A DNA stretch of 64,000 nt from an uncultured Clostridia bacterium (GTDB lineage Bacteria > Bacillota > Clostridia > Christensenellales > Borkfalkiaceae): NCBI GenBank assembly GCA_947627065.1, contig CANQUN010000006.1, positions 1 through 64,000 on the forward strand. Reading direction: 5' to 3'. The notes below the pieces were generated by a model. That model made no database searches and was not told the DNA's origin. It saw only the letters and a list, made by a program, of their open reading frames with translations. Positions within the stretch are counted from its first letter, which is position 1. The number at the start of each line of letters is the position of its first letter. Of this stretch, positions 31,825 to 56,466 are shown piece by piece. A program made the translations under genes and the position numbers.

Positions 31825-33894
31825 TTATTTGGTGAGGTCAAAGTATTCGCACATGACGCCTATTACGCCGTTGGTGTCGCCGGTGTTGTAATAGATGTTG
31901 ATGTAGTCGCCCTGCAGCATGCGCAGTTGTCCCGGCAGGCTGTCGTCTACGAACTGAATATTTTCGCCACCGAGATAAGCGCATATTCCGCCGCCCGAGG
32001 TTTCGAGAACGGGAGCGCCTTGGCCGCAATAACCGGTTAAGGCACCCGCGAGCGCGGTTCTGTAAGTCGCGGCGTCCGCGCCGTAAGCGGTGCCGTTGCT
32101 CTTGTATTCGCGGCCGTCGGTCTCGGCGGTGCGGAAGGCCTTGCCGTAGTCGAGGACGGCGCCGTTGATTTCGATGTAAGGAGCCATCTTGCCCGCTTTC
32201 CACACGTCTGCGCCGTCATCCTTGACGACGATTATGATGTTCATAGCGTTAATGCCGCTGCCTTCTTCGCCGTAGGTCTTTAAGAAACCGCGGTTAAAGG
32301 TCGCACCGGCAACCTGAGAGGCAGTCTTGGAAATTCCCTGAGGAACGGCGTTGAGCGCTTTGAATCCTTCAACTATAGCGGAGGCCTTTGCCATTTCGGT
32401 AAACCAAACTTCGTTGCCCGCAACGGGGTTGTCGAACACGCAGTTGGTGGCAACCACCTTGGGGCCTACGGCGTCGCCGCCGTCCATGTAAGCGTCGGCT
32501 ATGATGGCGGGACCGCCCGAATCCTTTATTATGCAGTTGTCGAGTTTCATGTCCTCGTTACCCCAGTTGTAGATGGGGGCGTTGAGGGAGTCGTAGCACT
32601 TCATGTTTTTGAACTCGACCGAGCCGTAGCGGCCGCTTGCCATGGTGGTTATGAAGAAGCGTCTCGACACAATGTTGTTTGCAAGCATATCCACCGTGTC
32701 CGATTTGAAGAAGATTACGCCGCCCTGTCCCGCAAGACCGCCGTCCTTGGGCGAGTTGCCGACCAGCGCGATGTCCTCTACCTTGGCCTTGGCGTTGTTA
32801 TCTTTGTTGCGCGAGTCAAAGCGGAAGAGAGAAGCGTGGCTGATGATGTGGTTTTCTATAAGGTTGCCCTCTTCGTCAAACGTGGCTTCCTGTCCGATGT
32901 ATTCGTTGACGCCGTGGCAGATTTCGAGAACGACGGGCAGTTTGTTGAGGTCGAGCGTGAAGTAGTTGCCGTAAATGGCAAACTCTTCATCTTTGCCTAT
33001 ATCCCTGTGGTAGATGGCGGTGCCGAGGCCGTCCTTGAGGGAGCCGACCTTGAACTTGCCGTCCTTGAGTTCCTTGGCCTCTTCTTCCGAATAGAACATG
33101 GTGTCCACTATGTCGTCGGCGGTCAGCAGCATGTCGCTGTGGAAGATGAACGCGTGAACGCTGTCGGGGTCGGGCAGGTCATGCTCGGCGCGGAATGCGG
33201 GCCAGGCCGCGTGCATGGCTTTGGAATCGTGGTCGTCGGGGAGATCCCTTTCGGTAAAGTTGCAGACAACGGCAAGTTCGTAGGGCTTGTACGCGTTGTA
33301 ACCGTCTATAACCTCAACTTCAAAGGAAACGGTGTAGTCCTCAACGTGCGTCTGCTGGTTGGCGGTGAGCGCGTTGGGCCAAGCCGAAAGGCGGAAGGTG
33401 CCGCCCTGCGCCTCGTCGGTGAAGTCTACCGTGCAGGTCGTCTCGTCAAAATCTTCAACGTAAGCCGAACCGTCGGTGTAATCCTCGCCTTCCTTCTTTT
33501 CAACCTTGTAACTGTAGGTTCCCTCGTCGGCGGGTGCGTCGACGGAGTCGCCCTCACTGTCCATGTACAAAACGTAAGGCTTGAAAGTGAAGCCGTTCAT
33601 GGTGCCTACCTTGTAGGACTTGCCAAGTTGGAAAAATTCGTTGGTTTCGTCGTATTTCTCCGCGGAGTTGACGTTGAACTCGGTTATGCCCGCGGGCAGT
33701 TGTACGCTGCTGACAAAAACGTCGGTAAGCAGCGTGCCCGAAGAGTCGCCCGTGTTGCCCGAATCCGTAGAATCGGACGATGTGCCCGAGCCGGACGATC
33801 CCGAGGTGTTGTCCTCGAATACGTTGCCGCAGGCGGTTAGCGACATACATGCCGCAATTGCAAGACAAAGAAACCAGATGAGTGTTCTTTTCAT
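31825..33894 (-). CDS. Surface lipoprotein with beta-helix-like region
   Basis: 689 residues. A lipoprotein signal ends in the lipobox LTAC (Cys 22), followed by a Ser/Gly/Thr/Asp linker (about 30-55). The C-terminal half has features of a right-handed parallel beta-helix, with short strands and asparagine turns such as LDNCIIKDSGGPAIIADAYM and VVATNCVFDN. No catalytic motif recognised. Ribosome site AAAGGAGG. Probably cell-surface exposed, perhaps binding polysaccharide, which is inference only. Confidence 0.8.
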   Translation of the reverse strand: MKRTLIWFLCLAIAACMSLTACGNVFEDNTSGSSGSGTSSDSTDSGNTGDSSGTLLTDVFVSSVQLPAGITEFNVNSAEKYDETNEFFQLGKSYKVGTMNGFTFKPYVLYMDSEGDSVDAPADEGTYSYKVEKKEGEDYTDGSAYVEDFDETTCTVDFTDEAQGGTFRLSAWPNALTANQQTHVEDYTVSFEVEVIDGYNAYKPYELAVVCNFTERDLPDDHDSKAMHAAWPAFRAEHDLPDPDSVHAFIFHSDMLLTADDIVDTMFYSEEEAKELKDGKFKVGSLKDGLGTAIYHRDIGKDEEFAIYGNYFTLDLNKLPVVLEICHGVNEYIGQEATFDEEGNLIENHIISHASLFRFDSRNKDNNAKAKVEDIALVGNSPKDGGLAGQGGVIFFKSDTVDMLANNIVSRRFFITTMASGRYGSVEFKNMKCYDSLNAPIYNWGNEDMKLDNCIIKDSGGPAIIADAYMDGGDAVGPKVVATNCVFDNPVAGNEVWFTEMAKASAIVEGFKALNAVPQGISKTASQVAGATFNRGFLKTYGEEGSGINAMNIIIVVKDDGADVWKAGKMAPYIEINGAVLDYGKAFRTAETDGREYKSNGTAYGADAATYRTALAGALTGYCGQGAPVLETSGGGICAYLGGENIQFVDDSLPGQLRMLQGDYINIYYNTGDTNGVIGVMCEYFDLTK

Positions 33895-34335: not shown

Positions 34336-34950
34336 TCAGATACCTAAATTTTCGGGATCGAAGTAGTTGATGAGGATACTCACGCTCGCCTTTTTGGCGT
34401 CCTCGCCCGCAATGCTCGTGTCCGCCTCGAAGGTGAACACGCATTTGTCGGGTTTGTAAAAGGTTATTTCAAACACGGTATCTTCGCCCCTGCCGAAGGT
34501 GTCCGTCGCCCTCGCCCACTCTATGTTTCTCTTGCCTATCTCCTCTTGGGGAGTGCCTCTTTTGTAACATTTGCCGGCGTCGGCCCGTATGTTGATGTAC
34601 CTTGACGAGGGCTGGTCGGGTTCTACAAGAAGTTCAACCACAAATACGCCCGGGACAAAACCGCCGTCCTCCAGCCTGTCGCCGTCCTGAACGGTCTTGC
34701 GCAGTTCTATGCTGTAACCCAACTTTTCCGCCCGCTCGGGTTTGTACATGCGGGTGTCGAAGGACAGACCCTTGTATTCGGTAAATCCCTTGGCCGTGTT
34801 CTCGGTTCCTTCGTCCGTCTCGGGCAGGTAATAAACCCGCGTTACGTACTCGGTGTGGGTGAGACTCTGCGGGTTGATGCCCAACTTGCCCACGAGGTAA
34901 ACGGACGCCACGTACAGAGCGGCTATTATGAGTATAACCGATTTCTTCAT
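34336..34950 (-). CDS. Membrane-anchored extracellular protein, unknown
   Basis: 204 residues. One N-terminal signal-anchor helix (about 4-22) and a soluble, probably outside domain rich in beta strands. No lipobox and no family recognised. It starts three bases after the stop of the ABC permease gene at 34954, so it belongs to that operon and may be an accessory of the exporter. Confidence 0.72.
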   Translation of the reverse strand: MKKSVILIIAALYVASVYLVGKLGINPQSLTHTEYVTRVYYLPETDEGTENTAKGFTEYKGLSFDTRMYKPERAEKLGYSIELRKTVQDGDRLEDGGFVPGVFVVELLVEPDQPSSRYINIRADAGKCYKRGTPQEEIGKRNIEWARATDTFGRGEDTVFEITFYKPDKCVFTFEADTSIAGEDAKKASVSILINYFDPENLGI

Positions 34951-34953
34951 ATC

Positions 34954-36627
34954 TTATTTACCCCCCTGTTTCTCGTAATAATACGCCCTTATGCTCTTGA
35001 TGAACAGGATGAGCGTTATTGTCATGAACACCGCTCCCATGCACGCCAACTTTACGAGTGGCACCGTTACTTTAAGCCCCGATTCGCTGAAGAACAGGTA
35101 GGAGAACACCGCCGCGATGAAACTTACCGCAAACGCCACGAGGGTGGAAGAAGTTTCGTTTGGGTTCCTCGCGCTGTCGCCCACGGTGGCGTACTGCTCG
35201 TTCTGCGGGTTCATGAGATCGAGCATGGACGAGAGGATGATGTGCCCGAACTGGAAGAAGATGAGCATGAGCGCAAGCAATATGAGGTCGTGCACCTTGA
35301 ACGTTCCGTAAGAGAAACTGCCGAACACCGCGACCGTTGCGGCGATCGACGGCACGCTCATCACCATGACGAAGAAGAGTTTTGCGCCTATCGGCAGGAG
35401 AATGTCCACGGGTTTGGTCTTTTTCATGTAGCCCGCGCGGCCCTCTCTGCTGAACAGCGTTGAGATTATGCTGTTTGAGGAGAGCATGGGCAGCAGCATG
35501 ATGAGCACGTTGCACGCGTAAGCCATGGTGAAGCCTCTGCCGTTTATGCCCTCTATCGCGTAGTACATCTTGTTGAGTAGATACACGAGCAGGGGCACCG
35601 CAACGTAGGTTGCAAGGTAGCCCGCCGAGATTTCGGTATCCATTACACACAGGCGGAATTCCTTGTTGAGAAAGGCGAACACCTTGCCGTGCGCACGGTT
35701 GGGGCGGCTCTTGACGGCCCGCTTTTCAAACTCGAACGACTTGCTCATCATGGTGAAGAACAGCGGCCTTGACACGGCAAACACCGTGAAGAACAGCACG
35801 GCCACCGCTCCCACCACTATTCCGAATATCAAAAACACCCGCCCCGACAGAATGGTGTAATGCACGTAGTCGGTAGTCGTGCCCACCATGAGGGTTACGA
35901 GATAACTGAACGGCGGCACGTTGAAGGTGGTAATCACCCACTTTACGGCGTTGGAAATGACCGCGCCCGTGTTGGTGAAAAAGTTGAGTTTTTCCGGGAT
36001 TTGCATTCCCACGGCGATACACGCCCACACGGCAAGCCCCACGACGCCCGCAAAGGTCAGAAGTTTGAGGGGCGGAACGCGGTTGTACGCCTTGCCTATG
36101 TACAGCGCGGGTATTGAGAGCAGCGCGCCCAAAAGCACGGGCAGCGCGGGCAGAATGGCGGTTACCACCATAGTCCACGGAATGAACCAAAGCCCGAACT
36201 GCTTGACGCTCGTCAGCCCCACGCCGATGATGACGGGCGTTATGAACATGTATTCCCTAATCAGTTCGTACAGATAATACACTATCATCTTGGAGATGAA
36301 GATGAGGTTGTTGCCCACGGGCAGGGTTATCAGCACGCGGTTGTCGTCGGCAAGGTAAAGCGTCTTTACCAGCCCCACCGTGCAAGAGAGCACGGACAGA
36401 ACGTACAGCCCGCACAGCAGCGTGCCGAGCAGGGTGGGCGTTTCGTAAACGTTGAGCGTGGTTATCAGCGTGAGCACGTACCTCACGCCGAACGCCGCCG
36501 CCGCCACGATTACAAACTTTAAGAGCGTGAACACAATCTTGCGTATCAGCGTCTTTTTGGAATTTGCAAAACTGAAATCGATCTTGTCTTTCAGCTGCAT
36601 GAGTATCAGCGTACCTAAGTGCTTCAT
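34954..36627 (-). CDS. ABC exporter permease (ABC-2 superfamily, large form)
   Basis: 557 residues with about twelve membrane helices and the two-half layout of the large Firmicutes ABC permeases. Its ATG overlaps the stop of the preceding ATPase fusion gene (ATGA), so ATPase and permease form one operon and probably one transporter. Substrate unknown. Confidence 0.82.
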   Translation of the reverse strand: MKHLGTLILMQLKDKIDFSFANSKKTLIRKIVFTLLKFVIVAAAAFGVRYVLTLITTLNVYETPTLLGTLLCGLYVLSVLSCTVGLVKTLYLADDNRVLITLPVGNNLIFISKMIVYYLYELIREYMFITPVIIGVGLTSVKQFGLWFIPWTMVVTAILPALPVLLGALLSIPALYIGKAYNRVPPLKLLTFAGVVGLAVWACIAVGMQIPEKLNFFTNTGAVISNAVKWVITTFNVPPFSYLVTLMVGTTTDYVHYTILSGRVFLIFGIVVGAVAVLFFTVFAVSRPLFFTMMSKSFEFEKRAVKSRPNRAHGKVFAFLNKEFRLCVMDTEISAGYLATYVAVPLLVYLLNKMYYAIEGINGRGFTMAYACNVLIMLLPMLSSNSIISTLFSREGRAGYMKKTKPVDILLPIGAKLFFVMVMSVPSIAATVAVFGSFSYGTFKVHDLILLALMLIFFQFGHIILSSMLDLMNPQNEQYATVGDSARNPNETSSTLVAFAVSFIAAVFSYLFFSESGLKVTVPLVKLACMGAVFMTITLILFIKSIRAYYYEKQGGK

Positions 36628-39600
36628 CTCGCCTCTCCGTCCGCGGATACGTCCGTTCCGTCGCCCGTCAGATTGTCTTGTTCGGTTGCATAAGTGCCCT
36701 TTTTCTCAGCGGAATCGCCGTTTTCGGCATTTTCGCCGCCTTCGCTCTTTGCGGCCGTTCCGCCGTCGTGCCCCGCCGTCTTGTCCGCGTCGGGGCCGTT
36801 GATCATCCTGAGGTAATAATCTTCAAGCAGACCCTCTTTCTCTATGTCGGCAACGTCTCTCGTAACGAGTATCTGCCCCTTCTTTATTATCGTAATCCTG
36901 TCGCAGATGCGCTCCACCACGTCTATTATGTGGCTGGAGAAGAACACGATGTTGCCGCGGGCGGCGTGCTCCTTCATGCACTCCTTGACCTGGAAAATGC
37001 TGTTGGGGTCGAGACCGGTGAGCGGTTCGTCGAGTATCCACAGTTTGGGGTCGTGCACGAGGGCGGCCATTATGGTAATCTTCTGTTTCATGCCGTGGCT
37101 GTAAGTCTTTATGGGGTTGTCTATGGCCCCCTCGAGTTCAAACATGGCCACGTACTTGTTTATCCTCTCGTTGCGAAGGTCCTCGCTGATTCCGTAAATA
37201 TCTGCGATGTAGTTGATGTATTCCCGCCCCGTGAGTTTTTCGTAAAGGGCGTAGTGGTCGGGCACGTAACCGATGAGCCGTTTGGCCTGCACGGGCTGGC
37301 GGGCGCAGTCGTAACCGCACACTTCGATGGACCCTTCGGTTATGGGCTGAATGCCCACTATACTCTTTATTATAGTGGACTTGCCCGCACCGTTCGGCCC
37401 GAGGAAGCCGAAGATCTCCCCGCCGTGCACTTCGAGATTGGCGCCGCGCACCGCGTACACCTTGCTGGTGGAATATTTCTTGGAAAAGTTTTTGAGTTGG
37501 AGGGTAACGCCCGCGTTTTCGTTCATGGGTTCTTCTATGCTCCTTCCGTCAAGGGCGGACATGAGCGCAAGCCTGTCAACCCTGATTTTTCTGTTTCTTT
37601 CGGTAAGCCGTCCGTGCGCGTCCGCAAGCGAAAAGCCGAGTTCGTACACAAACCACACCGCAAACCCTATTCCTATGTACACCACAAAGAATATGGATTG
37701 GTAAACCGGTCTTATCAAAAATTCATGCCCCGCAATGGTAAAGGGCAGTTTTATGTCGTAAAGGTTCTTCGCCCAGTCGCCCAGCGTGCTCGCCACGTGG
37801 TCGCCGTACAGGAAGAAGTAGTCCGCCCCGTACCCAAAGCCGTTGAGCACCACGTTCATGACGAATACCAAAAGGAAGTACATCAAAAATCCTATTATGG
37901 AATACTTGAACTGCTTGATCGTCGGCCTGTCGAAAACGCCGAGCGCCACCAGCAGCACGGGCATGAAGAACGCGCAATAGTGGTTGTACCAGAACCTCAC
38001 TATGTTCTGGCTGTACATCATCTGGTTCACGTCGTAGTTGGGTATGAGCATGGCGATGAACGCGCCGCAGACGTTGATGAAATAGGTGAAGTAAAACAGC
38101 CTGTTCGTGCGAAAAACGAGGCATATCGGCACGAGGAACATGGCCGTGTTGCAAAGGTGGAGCGGCCACGACGCGGGGTTTTTGACAAGTTGCACCGCCG
38201 TTATGTTGCCGCAGTAAACGGCCATTGCCATCAGCGAGAACGCCAGAAGGTTCAGCCGCCTGTTATCCTTGGAAAATCCCCTCAGCGAAAAGTACGCCGC
38301 CGCGGGTATCACCGCCCCGCCGTAGATGAGCAGGCGGTGGTTGAGACCAAAACCCTTAACGCCGTTTTCGGCCACCTTCTTCAGCGTGTCGCCGAGAAAG
38401 AACTGCCACGTGTACACGGGCATGGCGGGCACGAGTGCCAAAACCAGCATTCCAAAGAACAGCGCCCACGACTTCCACCCGTCAAACCGCGGAAATTTCC
38501 CCGCTATCGCCTGCGCCCAGGCGTAACCCGAAAGCGCCGCTGTCAGGCCGATCTCCAGCCCAAACAGCACCGTTGCCGCGGACATTCCGCCGCTTTGCAT
38601 GGATATGGCGCTCACGTCGTTGTACATCACGGCCGCAAACACCACGTAAACGGGCACGGCGTACATCACAAGGCGGTCGAGCGTAGCCGATTTGAAAAAT
38701 CCCCTCAGCGTAACCAGCGTTACCGCCATAACCGAAAACCATTCCGTCAGGTACACCAGAACGTACTTGACCTTGTCGGGCGCCACGGTAAGCGGGTTGG
38801 TCAGCCCGAGATGCTTGACCCTTATTGTAACCGAAGTCAGCGCGCTCACGTACGCGAGCGTGCGTGCAAAAAACAGTATAAATAAAAGGGCAGACAGCAC
38901 CTTTACGGTTACCGCCAACGCTCTTTGTCCTTTCTTTTCGGAATCTTCTGTTTGGGAACTTTCTCCCGCACATGTTTGGGAACTTACCCCCGCACAGGCA
39001 GTCCTTCCGCCTACTCCTCGGGTCTCCCCCTCGGCGGAACCTGTGCCAATGCCTTGGCTCGTCCTTTCTGCGGAATTTTCTGTGCCGAAGCCCTCATTTT
39101 GGCTCATGTTTATATCTTTGCCAAATTCCGGATTTTTGCCCGCGGTCGTTCCCTCGGCAGTCATTGCTCCAACGGCCTCCTCGCCGTCAAAGCCCGATGT
39201 CCGATGTTCCGTATCCTCTTTAATATACCCCGAAGCCTCGCACCCCACAGTTTGGCTCGCTCCCGATTCCGCGGTTTTTTCTGCGTTATAGGCCACTTTT
39301 TGGGAATTTCCGCCCTCATCGCCGGCCCTTGCTCCCTCTTGGTTCGCGTCCGCCTCGTCGGAATAACTTGCTCCCTCATCGTCGGCCTTTGCGCTTGCAT
39401 TTTGAAAGTCCGCACCCGTTCCGACGGCTTGTGTTCCGCCAAAGCCCGATGCCTGAGAATATGCTCCAACGGCCTCTTTACCGTCAAAGCCCGGTGTCAG
39501 GAAATTTGCTCCGACAGTCTCCTTTCCAAAGTCCGATGTTCTGGTCTCTGTATCCTCTTTAATATACCCCGAAGCCTCGCACCCCACAGTTTGGGAACTT

Positions 39601-39821
39601 ACTCCCGTCCCGTCAGACCTTGCGCCCATTCCTTGGGTAGTCCCACCGACAGAACTTCCGTCCACTCCTCGGGTCTCCACTTCGGCGGGCTTCCCGCCCT
39701 TTTGGGTCGCTGCACCGCGCTTGCCGAACACCTTGTTCAGGCTCGGTATATTTATAAGATATATCGCTGCAATTACCGCGGCGGCCGCTATCGCCCCTGC
39801 CGCCACAAACAAATAATTCAT
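36624..39821 (-). CDS. Fusion protein: membrane anchor, repetitive linker, YwaF-like membrane domain and ABC ATPase
   Basis: 1065 residues. One helix (about 5-27), then about 260 residues of Gly/Ser/Glu/Thr-rich low-complexity linker. Next comes a membrane domain with many helices (about 300-745) resembling the YwaF/TIGR02206 family (LHLCNTAMFLVPICLVF, NVCGAFIAMLIPNYD). A complete ABC ATPase follows (about 765-1005) with GFLGPNGAGKSTIIKS, YSHGMKQKITI, LWILDEPLTGLDPN and FFSSHIID. The linker holds a 45-bp perfect direct repeat (39211-39255 and 39550-39594) encoding QTVGCEASGYIKEDTE. DR28 copies encode AEKKGTYATEQ (tail) and QKVAYNAEKTAESG (linker). First gene of the exporter operon. Confidence 0.85.
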   Translation of the reverse strand: MNYLFVAAGAIAAAAVIAAIYLINIPSLNKVFGKRGAATQKGGKPAEVETRGVDGSSVGGTTQGMGARSDGTGVSSQTVGCEASGYIKEDTETRTSDFGKETVGANFLTPGFDGKEAVGAYSQASGFGGTQAVGTGADFQNASAKADDEGASYSDEADANQEGARAGDEGGNSQKVAYNAEKTAESGASQTVGCEASGYIKEDTEHRTSGFDGEEAVGAMTAEGTTAGKNPEFGKDINMSQNEGFGTENSAERTSQGIGTGSAEGETRGVGGRTACAGVSSQTCAGESSQTEDSEKKGQRALAVTVKVLSALLFILFFARTLAYVSALTSVTIRVKHLGLTNPLTVAPDKVKYVLVYLTEWFSVMAVTLVTLRGFFKSATLDRLVMYAVPVYVVFAAVMYNDVSAISMQSGGMSAATVLFGLEIGLTAALSGYAWAQAIAGKFPRFDGWKSWALFFGMLVLALVPAMPVYTWQFFLGDTLKKVAENGVKGFGLNHRLLIYGGAVIPAAAYFSLRGFSKDNRRLNLLAFSLMAMAVYCGNITAVQLVKNPASWPLHLCNTAMFLVPICLVFRTNRLFYFTYFINVCGAFIAMLIPNYDVNQMMYSQNIVRFWYNHYCAFFMPVLLVALGVFDRPTIKQFKYSIIGFLMYFLLVFVMNVVLNGFGYGADYFFLYGDHVASTLGDWAKNLYDIKLPFTIAGHEFLIRPVYQSIFFVVYIGIGFAVWFVYELGFSLADAHGRLTERNRKIRVDRLALMSALDGRSIEEPMNENAGVTLQLKNFSKKYSTSKVYAVRGANLEVHGGEIFGFLGPNGAGKSTIIKSIVGIQPITEGSIEVCGYDCARQPVQAKRLIGYVPDHYALYEKLTGREYINYIADIYGISEDLRNERINKYVAMFELEGAIDNPIKTYSHGMKQKITIMAALVHDPKLWILDEPLTGLDPNSIFQVKECMKEHAARGNIVFFSSHIIDVVERICDRITIIKKGQILVTRDVADIEKEGLLEDYYLRMINGPDADKTAGHDGGTAAKSEGGENAENGDSAEKKGTYATEQDNLTGDGTDVSADGEAR
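36690..36716 (+). repeat. DR28 copy in the tail of the ABC fusion gene
   Basis: TAAGTGCCCTTTTTCTCAGC form with an AATCG end. Confidence 0.75.
39211..39594. repeat. 45-bp perfect direct repeat inside the ABC fusion linker
   Basis: Copies at 39211-39255 and 39550-39594, 339 bp (113 codons) apart, in frame. Looser repeats of CGGCCTC, CCGTCAAAGCCC and GATGT lie around them. Confidence 0.9.
39271..39301 (-). repeat. DR28 copy in the ABC fusion linker
   Basis: TTCTGCGTTATAGGCCACTT form, encoding KVAYNAEKT. Confidence 0.7.
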
Positions 39822-39859: not shown

Positions 39860-40110
39860 CTTACTATGATTGCCTTATTATGCCTATCGCCTTTTTGTTG
39901 CACTTGTTGCCTTTTTGTTGCGAGTGTTGTTTTTTTATCGCGCTTGTTGTTTTTTATTGCACTTGTTGCCTATTGCGCTCGTTGACTTTTATTGCGCTTG
40001 TTGCCTTTTTGTTGCGAGTGTTGTTTCTTATTGCACTTGTCGCCTATTGCGAATATTGACTATTGTGCTTGTTACCTTTTTATTGCACTTGTTGCCTTTT
40101 TGTTATCTTT
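39860..40110 (-). repeat. Short tandem repeats in the exporter leader
   Basis: The word TTGCCTTTTTGTTGC(A/G) with RCTTGTTG recurs about every 30 bp from 39890 to 40105. In the transcribed (minus) direction it reads AAGGCAACAAGTGCAAYAAA. Confidence 0.75.
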
Positions 40111-40387
40111 TACGCTTTGAAGCCGTCTTTTCTTTCCGTCTTACACTTCGCAGCCGTCTTTTCCGGCCACGCGGTCGTATTCTTTATCGTTTTAACTGAA
40201 AAGCCGTCTTTATCGCCTCACGCCTGTCTCCCTCATTCGAAGAACCTGAACGCAAGCCTCGCAATTCTCCAATCAATTGCCGCCTTTTCTCGCTCCGCGC
40301 CACTGTTTCGCCGTTGTTATTGCAATTTCGTTAATGTAATTTCGCTCCACGTCGCTACTTTAACGCCGCCACAGCAATGCCGTTGTT

Positions 40388-40845
40388 CTAACCATCGCGC
40401 ACCGCTGTTGCCTTTCTGTCAAGTACCGCGCACGTAAATTTTGGTCTCTCTCGGCGCCTTTTTTCGTCGCCGTCTTTGCTCTAACCATCGCGCACCACTG
40501 TTGCTTTTCCGTTGCAACCCCGTACACGTTACTTTTGCTCTCTCAGCACCGTTTTTCCGTCGCCGTCTTTACTCTAACCATCGCGCACCGCTGTTACCTT
40601 TCTGCTGCAACCCCGTACACGTTACTTTTGCTCTCTCTCGGCGCCGTTTTTCGTCGCCGTTTCTACTCTCATCATCGCGCACCGCTGTTGCCTTTCTGCT
40701 GCAACCCCGCGCACGTTACTTTTGGTCTCTCGGCACCGTTTCCGTCGCCATTTCAACTCGTCATCGCGCGCCGCTGTTGCTTTTCCGTTGCAACCCCGCG
40801 CACGTAACTTTTGGTCTCTCGCGGCACCGTTTTCGCTGTACGCCT
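40388..40845 (-). repeat. Five tandem repeats of 89-95 bp in the exporter leader
   Basis: Units start at 40388, 40479, 40574, 40668 and 40757. Each contains CATCGCGCACC, CTGTTGC, TGCAACCCCG, GCACGTTACTTTT, CTCTC and GCACCGTTTTCCGTCGCC. No consistent reading frame. The copies are too similar throughout to be a CRISPR array. Confidence 0.9.
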
Positions 40846-40852
40846 GTCTCTT

Positions 40853-41106
40853 AATTATTGACGTCTATACCGCACGCGGCCCGTATCGCCACGAAAGAAG
40901 CGGTTTTTCTTTATCGTATATCGCCTTTTTTAGCCGCGAAAAGCCCGTTTTACCCCTCGTCGGAGCGCCGAAACGATCACTTTATTATTGACGTCTTAAC
41001 CGCACGTGGCCTGTGTCGCCGCAACTGAAGCGGTTTTTCTTTATCGTATATCGCCTTTTCCCAGCGCAGTCAGCGGTTTTTCTCCCTTGTCGGAGCGCAG
41101 AAACGC
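40853..41106 (-). repeat. Two tandem copies of about 130 bp at the start of the leader
   Basis: Both copies contain TTATTGACGTCT, CCGCACG, GAAGCGGTTTTTCTTTATCG, TATATCGCCTTTT and GTCGGAGCGC. Period 130 bp. Confidence 0.85.
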
Positions 41107-41370: not shown

Positions 41371-42534
41371 TTATTTGTTGCCTTTTGCCCGGTTGTGCGT
41401 TACGCACAGCATGGTGCAGTTGGAAACATCGGTCGCCCCGCCTCTGCTCCACGCGGTAACATGGTCAGCATCCATTTCCTTTAATTTATAAATCCGGCGT
41501 CTGTTGCTGTCGTGGCCAATGGCGCACAACGGGCAGTTGGAAACGCCTTTTCCTTTTGCTCCCGCCGTCTGCCGTTCATAAACAACCTGCTTTGTACGGT
41601 CGTCAAAGATGCGTATTTCGAGAAGTTTCGTGTCTGTGCATCCGCCTAAAATATACTCGAAAATGCCCTTGGGGTTACTGACTGCAAAGTCGGCAAATAA
41701 TTTCACCGCTTTTTCGTGTATATCGTTGGGGTCGTAGGCGTTAGCGTGGAACCGCTCGTACAATCCGCCCCAATCAAGGCCGCGCATCTGAGGTTTTACA
41801 TCAATAAAAACACTTGAAACCCAATCAATTACGCTGTTAAAATATGTTTTTAATTCGTTGATATCCGTATCGTATCTATGACGTGCCATGTAATCATCGA
41901 TACTGCCCTTGCTTACCCACATGAGTGCGGTGCGCAAAAAATCCTGCCGTTTTACGTCGCCGCCGATATACGCCGACCACTTTTGAATATTTGCATTCCG
42001 GCTGTTTGAAAATTCCGCCTTTGCAAGAGTAACGAACGGGCCGGAAAAGATAGCATTCAAAAGTTCTTGATCTTTGAGAGCAACGCCCGCGATATTTATG
42101 GTGCGGAACCACTCTTTTATTTCGCTCTCCGTGCCGCTGCATTCGTAAACCGTCAGTTTTGTGTCAAGAATCTTGCGTTGCAAATTTTCGGCCAGACCTC
42201 GGAAATACTGTTGCAGTCCGTTATCGTCAATGATCGGAAATTTTCCCGTCAGAAAGCGGCCGATGCTCGTAATACGCTGCTGCCCGTCAAGAATTTCAAA
42301 CTTATCCTCGGAAACCTTGTTGAAATAGATGAGGCCTATCGGGTAGCCCTTTAATAAAGATTGTATTACCGCAACGTCTTTCTTGCCGTCCGCATAAATA
42401 TAGTTGCGCTGATATTCGGGCTGGATTACAAGTTTCCCCGCAAGCCCGAAAAGCCCCTTGCCCTCATATTCGTTATAAACAAAGCCCTCGCATACCTTTT
42501 CCACCGTCAAGTCAATGTTCAATTTCGTAATCAT
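41371..42534 (-). CDS. DUF262 / HNH endonuclease, probable restriction enzyme
   Basis: 387 residues. The N-terminal DUF262 (ParB/Srx-like) domain has [17 protein letters not shown] and the hallmark [14 protein letters not shown]. The C-terminal HNH domain has [31 protein letters not shown] and [13 protein letters not shown]. The start overlaps the methylase stop (TAATG). DUF262 proteins with C-terminal HNH-type nuclease domains include GmrSD-type modification-dependent enzymes. Here the pairing with a methylase and a controller suggests a type II-like role, which is inference. AT-richer than the flanking genes and without DR28. Confidence 0.85.
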
Positions 42535-43715
42535 TATTTTTTTGTTCTCCTGCGTATAAGAATCCTTCCATAAGGCAAGCGGCCGGGTTTGCCGTTTTCA
42601 TTCAAACGCAGCCCGTTTCCCGCTTTGCATTCCGCCACCGTATACGGGGTTGTCCATAACACCTCTCCATCCGCTTCGTAACAAATTATGTTTTTGCTTT
42701 TATAGGCAACATGCTCTGATGTTTTAGGTGCGGACGCGCCGCTATCGATTATTTCAAACTGTTCGGGATTGTATCTGTCAAGGAAAGACGACGGTACCCC
42801 CATAACGCCGTCGTAATCACTCGGAATAGCGTCAACGTACGGGACGTCTATGCCGTCGTAATTATAATATCCGTAATAGCCGTTTTCTCTTATATCTTTA
42901 TGTCTGCTGTATCTCATATTATCCGCCATGGTCATGAGGTCTAACGGCTGGTGTCTGCGCCCGTGATCAAGATTGGTGTACCACGTGCAATTACGGAATT
43001 TTACCAACTTGGTAACGGGGTCATAAACGCCGTCTGCATACTCATTTTTAGCACCTTCCGGAATACCGAAATAAGCATTTCCCGCTTGAAACCCGCGCCC
43101 TATCCATATCTTATTGTCTTTTATCAGCGGGAATATTTCTTTATATGTAGCCATGCCTATTTGGCCTATGATCAAAAATTTCTTGTCAGCCTCCAAAATC
43201 CACGCGACAAAATCTCTGAAAAGCGAAAATGGCGGGTTTGTAACGATAATGTCCGCCTCATCTCGCAGTTTGCAAACTTCTTCCGTTTGAAAATCGCCCG
43301 TTCCGTCTAAATAAGACCACTCCAGATCGTCATAGTCGACGTTTCCCGATTGGTTGGCGTCCCTCGTCAGAGTAAATATCTTCCCCTTTGTAACGGCTTT
43401 CTCTTCGTCGTACTGCGGAGACGCGGTTTCAAAAAAAGACACCTGATGATATTTTTCATATTTTTCCTTTTTCACTTCTATGGCATAACTTGTACTGATG
43501 AGTTTTTTAAGCCCGAGGTTTTCAAAATTCTGTGCGAAAAATTTTGTGAAATTGCTCCACTCGGGATCGTCGCAAGGACACAAGACGACCTTGTCCCGAA
43601 ATGTGTTTGGATCAAATTCCAAATAAGCGTTGATTTCACGTTGTATATCATCAAATTGAGTATAAAACTCATCGTTTTGCCGTTTCTTCGCCTTCAATAA
43701 CGCATCGTTCGCCAT
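42534..43715 (-). CDS. Adenine-specific DNA methyltransferase, EcoRI-methylase family
   Basis: 393 residues from the ATG after AAAAGGGCGG, where [19 protein letters not shown] begins the family similarity. A GTG start at 43769 would add 18 residues. DNA adenine methylase motif IV is [10 protein letters not shown], and [15 protein letters not shown] also fits the M.EcoRI family (PF13651). Specificity cannot be read from sequence. It is coupled to the downstream nuclease gene and driven by a promoter with built-in operator boxes. Confidence 0.88.
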
Positions 43716-43798
43716 TTTTACCGCCCTTTTCAGCGCATTGTCAACCGTCCGCGCACGTCCTTCTTCCACCGCGCCCGCAGACCTGCCTTGCCGCTATT

Positions 43799-44548: not shown

Positions 44549-45277
44549 ATGAAAGCCAGAAAGAGAGCCGAGGAGATACTCGCGTATCTCGAGAGCATGA
44601 AGGATGACGAAGGCCACATTGCGATCGACGTGAACATTTCAAACACGCCTCTTTACGACGAGTTGTCGGTGGGCAGCAACCTTGACCTGAACGGTGCCAT
44701 TTACGATTTCATCGACCGCGAGGCCAACCTGATTCCGGCCAAGATTCCGCTTAAAATCCGCTTTGTGGGGCGGGACGTAAGCCCCGAAGAACAGGCCGAA
44801 ATCCGCCGAATCATGCACAAGCACTACACGCTCAAGTCGCTCGACATCACGTGGGACAAGGCGGCCAACTTCAAAAAGATGGTGGGGCTGTCGCTGTTCG
44901 GCGTGGCGATGCTGGCGGCCTACTTCCTGCTTTCGGTGTTCGACGGCAACCCGATGATAACCGAAATCCTTTCCATAATCGGCTCGTTTTCTCTGTGGGA
45001 AGCGACCGGCTCGTACCTCTTGGACCGCCCGCAACTCAGGCGCGAACACGCCAACGTCATGCAGAACATAAACCAGAAAATCGAGTTCATCGGCACCTCA
45101 CAAACGCCCGCGCAAGAACAAAAAGTGGCCTATATCGCACAAAATAGCGGCATTTCATCATCGTCGGACGCGCCGCGCACAAACGCCGAAGTGGCCGCTT
45201 TGTCGGACGCGGAAGCCAACGCAAACGCCCCTACTCTTGCGGCGGACAACGATAAAAACGCCCCGCCCGCAGAGTAA
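44549..45277 (+). CDS. Membrane protein of unknown function
   Basis: 242 residues. A soluble N-terminal domain (about 1-110) is followed by two membrane helices (about 112-130 and 137-155) and an Ala/Asn/Asp-rich tail. The ribosome site AAAGGAGAAACG fixes the start. A DR28 copy encodes QKVAYIAQNSGIS near residue 195, the same peptide start (QKVAY) as the copy in the ABC fusion linker. No family recognised. Confidence 0.7.
   Translation: MKARKRAEEILAYLESMKDDEGHIAIDVNISNTPLYDELSVGSNLDLNGAIYDFIDREANLIPAKIPLKIRFVGRDVSPEEQAEIRRIMHKHYTLKSLDITWDKAANFKKMVGLSLFGVAMLAAYFLLSVFDGNPMITEILSIIGSFSLWEATGSYLLDRPQLRREHANVMQNINQKIEFIGTSQTPAQEQKVAYIAQNSGISSSSDAPRTNAEVAALSDAEANANAPTLAADNDKNAPPAE
45121..45150 (+). 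repeat. DR28 copy inside the membrane-protein gene
   Basis: AAAAGTGGCCTATATCGCAC form with AAAATAGCGG end. Confidence 0.85.
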
Positions 45278-48656: not shown

Positions 48657-48687
48657 CCCCGTTTTTGTGCGTTTTAGGCCACTTTTG
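48657..48687 (-). repeat. DR28 copy, intergenic
   Basis: TTGTGCGTTTTAGGCCACTT form. Confidence 0.95.
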
Positions 48688-55627: not shown

Positions 55628-56466
55628 GCGAGGAAACTCCTCATCCGCATTCTGCCGCCCGCGGCCTCGCCCACGCCGACGAACGCGCCGTCGCCGTACA
55701 CGAGAAAAAGCCCCCTTCCTTCAAAGGGCAGCCCCACTCCGTTTTTGAGTTTGAAAAAGTCCTGCCCCCAAAATTCCGCACGCGGAAAGGAAAGCGCCGA
55801 TTCGGTAGGCAGCAAAAAGGAAAACGGGTCGAGCGAGGCGCAGAAGTTTCCCACGGTAACCGCACGCTCCAAAGTGAACACGCCCGCGGCGGTCCTGACA
55901 AGGCGGGTCATGTACGCGCACGTGCCGAGCGCGGCGGCAATGTCGCGGGCAAGCGCGCGGATGTACGTTCCGCCAAGGCAGTCGATTTCAAAGGTGAACG
56001 CGCCGCCCTCATGCCCCACAAGTTCAAGCCGCTCGACGGTTACTTTTTTAGCGGGAATGGAAAATTCCACCCCCTTGCGGGCGAGCCGATAGCCGCGCTG
56101 CCCGTCTATGAGTTTGGCCGAATAGTTGGGCGGAACCTGTTCGATTTCACCCAAAAAGTGGCCTAAAACGCGCAAAATCTCGCTTTCTTCGGGTACGCGG
56201 CCGCCCGTTTTGGTAAAGGCGCCGCCTCGGTCGAGCGTGTCGGTTTCGGACCCGAAGGTGAACTCGGCAACGTAAGTTTTGCGCTTGGAGAGCAGGTAGT
56301 CGAACGCGCGCGTGGCCTTGCCTACGGCAACGGGCAGAACCCCTTCCGCCAGCGGGTCGAGCGTGCCCATGTGCCCGCACTTTTCGCCGAGTTTTCGCTT
56401 GACCTTGGCGACGGCGAGGGCCGAACTCTCCCCTTCTTTCTTGTATATGTTGATGAATCCGTTCAC
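55624..56466 (-). CDS. truB: tRNA pseudouridine-55 synthase
   Basis: 280 residues. INIYKKEGESSALAVAKVKRK, then GTLDPLAEGVLPVAVGKATRA with the catalytic aspartate, YVAEFTFGSETDTLDRGG and YIRALARDIAAALG. Forms pseudouridine 55 in the T-loop. A DR28 copy encodes RVLGHFLGEIEQVP near residue 100. Overlaps the ribF start, as usual in the nusA-infB cluster of Firmicutes. Confidence 0.96.
   Translation of the reverse strand: MNGFINIYKKEGESSALAVAKVKRKLGEKCGHMGTLDPLAEGVLPVAVGKATRAFDYLLSKRKTYVAEFTFGSETDTLDRGGAFTKTGGRVPEESEILRVLGHFLGEIEQVPPNYSAKLIDGQRGYRLARKGVEFSIPAKKVTVERLELVGHEGGAFTFEIDCLGGTYIRALARDIAAALGTCAYMTRLVRTAAGVFTLERAVTVGNFCASLDPFSFLLPTESALSFPRAEFWGQDFFKLKNGVGLPFEGRGLFLVYGDGAFVGVGEAAGGRMRMRSFLA
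56154..56182 (+). repeat. DR28 copy inside truB
   Basis: AAAAAGTGGCCTAAAACGCG form, with the A-core and CGCGCA. Confidence 0.85.

Follow-up and report, generated by a model that had tools for sequence, protein, structure and literature searches.

A TMEM164-type membrane domain and an ABC ATPase joined in one polypeptide, within a conserved four-gene cassette of gut Clostridia and Bacilli

How acyl donors reach acyltransferases that work outside the cell is an open question, as for the Bacillus enzyme LhaT (PMC12345273). The locus described here raises a related one: what could a single polypeptide accomplish that joins a TMEM164-type membrane domain to a complete ABC ATPase? The gene lies in the window, by which we mean the whole 64,000-nucleotide stretch analysed (positions 1 to 64,000 of contig CANQUN010000006.1, assembly GCA_947627065.1), from an uncultured Clostridia bacterium of the Borkfalkiaceae. 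It occupies positions 36624..39821 of the minus strand, which also carries all features of the fusion and its partner genes given below. The frame opens with an ATG, is stop-free throughout in the ORF list and encodes 1065 residues. Together, the ORF, the Pfam matches and an AlphaFold2 model define a membrane unit, in which 13 transmembrane (TM) helices are counted in the model, with a TMEM164 domain and an ABC ATPase.

A preliminary description of this DNA, made from the letters and their reading frames, had proposed that one chain holds a YwaF-like membrane domain and a full ABC ATPase, and the domain searches agree. TMEM164 (PF14808) matches residues 491-688 at 78.1 bits (E 8.8e-22), exceeding the gathering score of 25 bits, and ABC_tran (PF00005) matches residues 792-934 at 92.1 bits (E 6.2e-26); the TIGR02206 (YwaF) score of 69.1 bits falls below the NCBI curated cut-off of 75. 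Both Pfam families were matched in 54/54 aligned fusions. The presence of PF14808 in every one of them rejects the alternative, named in that description, that the membrane part is an ordinary ABC permease. From the N-terminus, the chain consists of TM1 (39750..39818, residues 2-24), a model helix also seen in hydropathy and aligning with TM1 of relatives; TM2-TM6 (38433..38930, residues 298-463), the N-terminal half of the membrane unit by model and topology; the TMEM164/ATGY-type domain formed by TM7-TM13 (37554..38366, residues 486-756), which carries the conserved H495, C557 and H614; the ABC ATPase domain (36792..37514, residues 770-1010), with Walker A and B, signature and H-loop intact; and an acidic low-complexity C-terminal tail (36627..36791, residues 1011-1065), delimited by alignment, composition and model. 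The ABC motifs are invariant across the 54 fusions at residues of 808-816, S908-K912, D931-E932 and H964. Profile comparison of TM2-6 with TM7-13 found no internal duplication of the membrane unit, and that idea was rejected. A structural search with the whole fusion returned a list filled by ABC ATPases, and no solved structure related by sequence to the membrane unit or to the neighbouring permease was found.

The most conspicuous part of the chain is a low-complexity insert of 266 residues (38937..39734, residues 30-295), rich in G (18%), A (12%), E (10%), T (10%) and S (10%), with a net charge of -21 and pLDDT < 50 over residues 34-288 of the AlphaFold2 model. The preliminary description had read it as a linker behind a separate membrane anchor. 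The stretch itself is real, whereas the anchor is TM1 of the 13-TM unit and the linker lies within that unit's TM1-TM2 loop, on the cytosolic side. Nor is it an architectural part of a transporter, a role we reject since none of the relatives seen has one: it is missing in all 10 aligned relatives, four of them from the same genus (G001, G002, G003 and G005), which have a short TM1-TM2 loop instead. Among the 80 relatives whose loci were fetched, at most 270 residues precede the HRxxIY motif, versus about 494 in the window protein, and the longest fused chain has 892 residues. The insert is thus dispensable for the family's function, given the relatives that lack it; it is a private disordered cytosolic loop of this genome, outside the family architecture.

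Its recent growth is plausible. A perfect 45-bp in-frame duplication, already recognised in the preliminary description, lies within the insert (39211..39255 and 39550..39594). The two copies are not tandem, being 339 bp apart from start to start, and exact repeats reached at most 13 bp when the insert region was shuffled 20 times, versus the 45 observed. GC content by codon position is 0.61/0.57/0.52 in the insert versus 0.53/0.37/0.74 in the rest of the fusion, a difference expected if the insert is young or under weak constraint. An origin by copying from another protein of the genome was rejected: no protein matched, and the sole overlap was a short dispersed DNA motif, a 24-bp copy of which was located by motif search at 39277..39300 on the minus strand, within the coding insert.

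Leaving the insert aside, the fusion is old and conserved. When 61 related genomes were searched for TMEM164, fused-length frames of 735-839 residues appeared in 11 genomes besides that of the window, with shorter frames of stand-alone proteins elsewhere. Run against a genome collection, a membrane-unit profile yielded 255 relatives, of which the best 80 were fetched; most of these belong to metagenome assemblies from gut or rumen that carry the labels Clostridia, Christensenellaceae, Bacilli or Erysipelotrichales. Membrane unit and ATPase share one frame in 80/80 of these best 80 of 255 relatives, a count biased towards fusions since the loci were found with peptide patterns from fused proteins. 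In a sample of the order, a homolog occurs in 34/248 genomes and 19/116 genera, nearly always as a fused-length frame. A phylum-wide sample of 398 genomes gave the window's own copy alone, indicating that members of the family cluster in certain orders. In a tree whose root is arbitrary, the fused proteins form one clade, separate from AT3-paired and split relatives, with support of 100/100.

The fusion does not stand alone. The next gene encodes a separate permease of 557 residues (34954..36627), which the preliminary description had also placed there; it overlaps the end of the fusion by 4 bp, and a homolog follows the fusion in 80/80 fetched loci. Judged by its relatives, the permease probably belongs to the ABC_tran_2 family (PF16949): 23/40 aligned permeases match it with E<=0.1, 3.9e-13 being the best value, and the window permease itself has no match. 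Two further genes, which that description left out, complete a conserved cassette, and profiles support the homology of both slots. The third slot holds a protein of 130-200 residues starting MKK or similar in 72/73 loci with long enough contigs. Its member in the window is a TM-anchored Ig-like (Big_2-type) protein of 204 residues (34336..34950), assigned by a profile match; Big_2 itself was matched in 4/28 members of this small family. The fourth slot holds a lipobox protein, mostly of 640-1440 residues, in 70/72 loci with long enough contigs, and here it is a surface lipoprotein of 689 residues (31825..33894). The lipobox cysteine, C22, is invariant in 35 aligned lipoproteins and sits behind an N-terminal signal; Big_3 was matched in 15/35 and Flg_new in 4/35. 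The structure model of the window lipoprotein (pLDDT 85.8) predicts a beta-helix; its matches, at Z 12-16, include pectate lyases, alginate epimerases and tailspikes. None stands out among these many carbohydrate enzymes and tailspikes, so no functional assignment was made: the matches to the model give a probable fold and no function. Unusually large lipoproteins, of 1440 and 1443 residues, end the cassettes of loci L077 and L121.

The same set of parts also occurs without the fusion. In genome G007 (locus L124), a TMEM164 protein of 472 residues and an ATPase of 244 residues are encoded by separate genes, followed by a permease, a Big_2-like anchored protein and a lipoprotein of 1669 residues. 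The small anchored protein matches the cassette profile, and the lipoprotein does so weakly, with filters off. That the cassette set is kept here without the fusion argues that the TMEM164 and ATPase domains belong together. The 1669-residue lipoprotein contains repeated Ig-like segments. A different arrangement is seen in loci L026, L027, L029, L030 and L031, where a long TMEM164 protein (about 480-520 residues) without an ATPase is followed by a gene for about 335-365 residues, which matches Acyl_transf_3 (PF01757) in the three loci scanned (L026, L027 and L029). The long TMEM164 protein and its Acyl_transf_3 neighbour are a second conserved two-gene pair. In these unfused long paralogs, too, an N-terminal part of similar size to TM2-TM6 precedes the TMEM164 domain.

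Which residues might act, and on which side of the membrane? With the ATPase set inside, the density of K+R per residue over 53 relatives is 0.232 in loops predicted inside versus 0.048 outside. These densities would place the insert inside and H495, C557 and H614 on the outer side of the membrane. Of the polar residues, these three recur most consistently in AT3-paired TMEM164 proteins and in those stand-alone ones that can be aligned: all occur in all fusions, and among the alignable stand-alone members C557 is found in 8/8, H614 in 7/7 and H495 in 7/8. Sharing does not extend to H555 in the HLC motif, a position where the split-locus and AT3-paired forms have Q; the Q in the split-locus protein indicates that H555 is dispensable in the wider family. 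By analogy with that family, C557 and H614 may be catalytic.

The closest functional guide is the ATGY superfamily of membrane enzymes, to which TMEM164 and LhaT belong, both being bimolecular acyl transferases (PMC12345273). LhaT (YpjA, DUF1405) is the Bacillus lipoprotein N-acetyltransferase; it acts on lipoproteins outside the cell, and the route of its lipid donor across the membrane is unclear (PMC12345273). The fusion resembles LhaT in superfamily, in being an integral membrane protein and in its presumed outside acceptor, and differs from it in that LhaT is single-domain as described (PMC12345273). LhaT is a distant comparison, too: DUF1405 (PF07187) had no match in the fusion by Pfam scan or in any of 29 genomes, the window genome included; PcrB is absent from the window genome and has one weak match among the 29. 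The LhaT donor, acetyl-heptaprenylglycerol, is therefore unlikely here, and we rejected a donor pathway of the LhaT type. Lgt is present in 28/29 genomes, that of the window among them, so lipoproteins are made in these bacteria. Compared with stand-alone TMEM164/YwaF proteins, the fusion shares PF14808 and the residues H495, C557 and H614 and differs in its six extra N-terminal TMs, its ABC ATPase, its four-gene cassette and its score under the TIGR02206 cut-off.

We used these observations to outline a working model. Our leading reading, which we hold tentatively and at slightly less than even chances, is that the cassette encodes an ABC machine in which an acyltransferase of the ATGY (TMEM164/LhaT) type is built in at the outer leaflet and serves the dedicated surface lipoprotein or its lipid. 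It is favoured because of the ATGY kinship of TMEM164 and LhaT, the presence of Lgt and the position of long paralogs beside Acyl_transf_3 genes. Two fusion chains would presumably pair with two permease chains. ATP hydrolysis by the fused ATPase, together with the permease, would flip, extract or deliver a hydrophobic donor or acceptor. The TMEM164/ATGY domain would transfer an acyl group at the outer leaflet, where its candidate residues H495, C557 and H614 are predicted to lie. On the outside, the machine would have two dedicated parts, the anchored Ig-like protein and the large lipoprotein with its beta-helix. Judged solely from the gene neighbourhood, the acceptor is most likely the cassette lipoprotein or its anchoring lipid; we infer catalysis, the chemistry of donor and acceptor, and the direction of transport. 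A more specific version is possible yet doubtful: one polypeptide would unite the motor of an ABC flippase with an outer-leaflet acyltransferase of the TMEM164/LhaT superfamily, delivery of donor or acceptor would be coupled to acyl transfer with the lipoprotein as acceptor, and the whole would be an ATP-driven envelope machine of a kind not described before.

Two other arrangements, both improbable in our estimate, would give the TMEM164 domain or the ABC pair a different part. NosDFY consists of a beta-helix periplasmic protein acting with an ABC ATPase and a permease, so the cassette has a similar layout in its ABC pair and extracytoplasmic beta-helix protein. By mechanotransmission of this kind, the ABC pair would reshape the lipoprotein, with the TMEM164 domain as a non-catalytic structural coupler. 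The likeness extends to the lipoprotein model, which resembles right-handed beta-helix proteins, and to the ATPase domain, some of whose better structural matches come from NosDFY (7o0y, Z 28.6); yet many unrelated ATPases match equally well, NosD is not among the 50 structural matches listed for the lipoprotein, and the putative catalytic residues are kept in the fused domain. The cassette differs further in that its outside protein is a lipoprotein with an Ig-type stalk and no known copper-site context, and to our knowledge NosDFY has no TMEM164 domain.

The other arrangement likens the ABC pair to EcsAB, which works with the protease RasP: the pair would supply or clear hydrophobic substrates for the attached TMEM164 enzyme. 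In structure, the ATPase matches EcsA from a RasP-EcsA model best (Foldseek E 1.2e-16; VIA Z 31.4, rmsd 1.6, 239 aligned residues, 32% identity), and the shared feature would be an ABC ATPase of one structural group that works with a membrane-embedded enzyme. This rank is shared, however, within 1 Z by other ATPases (ABCA4 at 30.9 and 4rvc at 30.8), and the enzyme in EcsAB-RasP is a separate protease. The permeases probably also differ in family: that of the cassette is placed in PF16949 by its relatives, and no EcsB family is among the Pfam matches of 40 permeases at E<=0.1.

Less probable still is a conventional ABC transporter exporting a lipid or small molecule, with the TMEM164 domain as a scaffold in decay. 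A generic, DrrA/GldA-like ATPase fits this reading, as does a permease that its relatives place with the uncharacterised ABC_tran_2 (PF16949) exporters. In the cassette this permease is paired with a fusion, and a diverse clade has kept both the entire cassette and the residues H495, C557 and H614, which speaks against decay. An assembly or frameshift artefact, conceivable in a draft of 104 contigs with 4% contamination and, as an assembly error, listed in the preliminary description as a possible source of the fusion, is refuted for it by recurrence in all 80 independent records and made scarcely credible for the insert by two flanks that remain in frame.

The component families of the acyltransferase-type machine favoured here are known; in the open-licence literature searched, neither their combination nor the four-gene cassette seems to have been described. 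No account of either turned up there, which accords with the preliminary statement that no transporter of this order is known; one could exist elsewhere. Nor did that literature yield a functional paper on bacterial TMEM164 proteins. If correct, our reading would provide a first function for these proteins and for a permease family named only 'putative'. An ATGY domain fused to an ABC motor and accompanied by a surface lipoprotein, conserved across a broad range of gut Clostridia and Bacilli, makes ATP-coupled donor delivery directly testable.

The surroundings of the cassette contain further repeats. The dispersed motif noted in the insert, AAAGTGGCCTA(A/T)AACGCACAAAA, is 23-24 bp long and has 54 copies in this genome at <=2 mismatches; its reversed control has 0 copies, and five congeners have 2-4 copies each. 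Copies are found inside as well as between long frames (39277-39300, 45121-45144, 48663-48686, 56154-56177 and others), one of them in the coding insert. The intergenic region upstream of the fusion (39889-41105) holds several degenerate tandem arrays with periods of 20, 74, 93 and 130. In the ORF list, the frame at 42534-43769 shows the NPPF motif known from DNA methylases, and an HNH-like frame at 41371-42534 overlaps it; the region 41371-43769 is possibly a defence or mobile locus.
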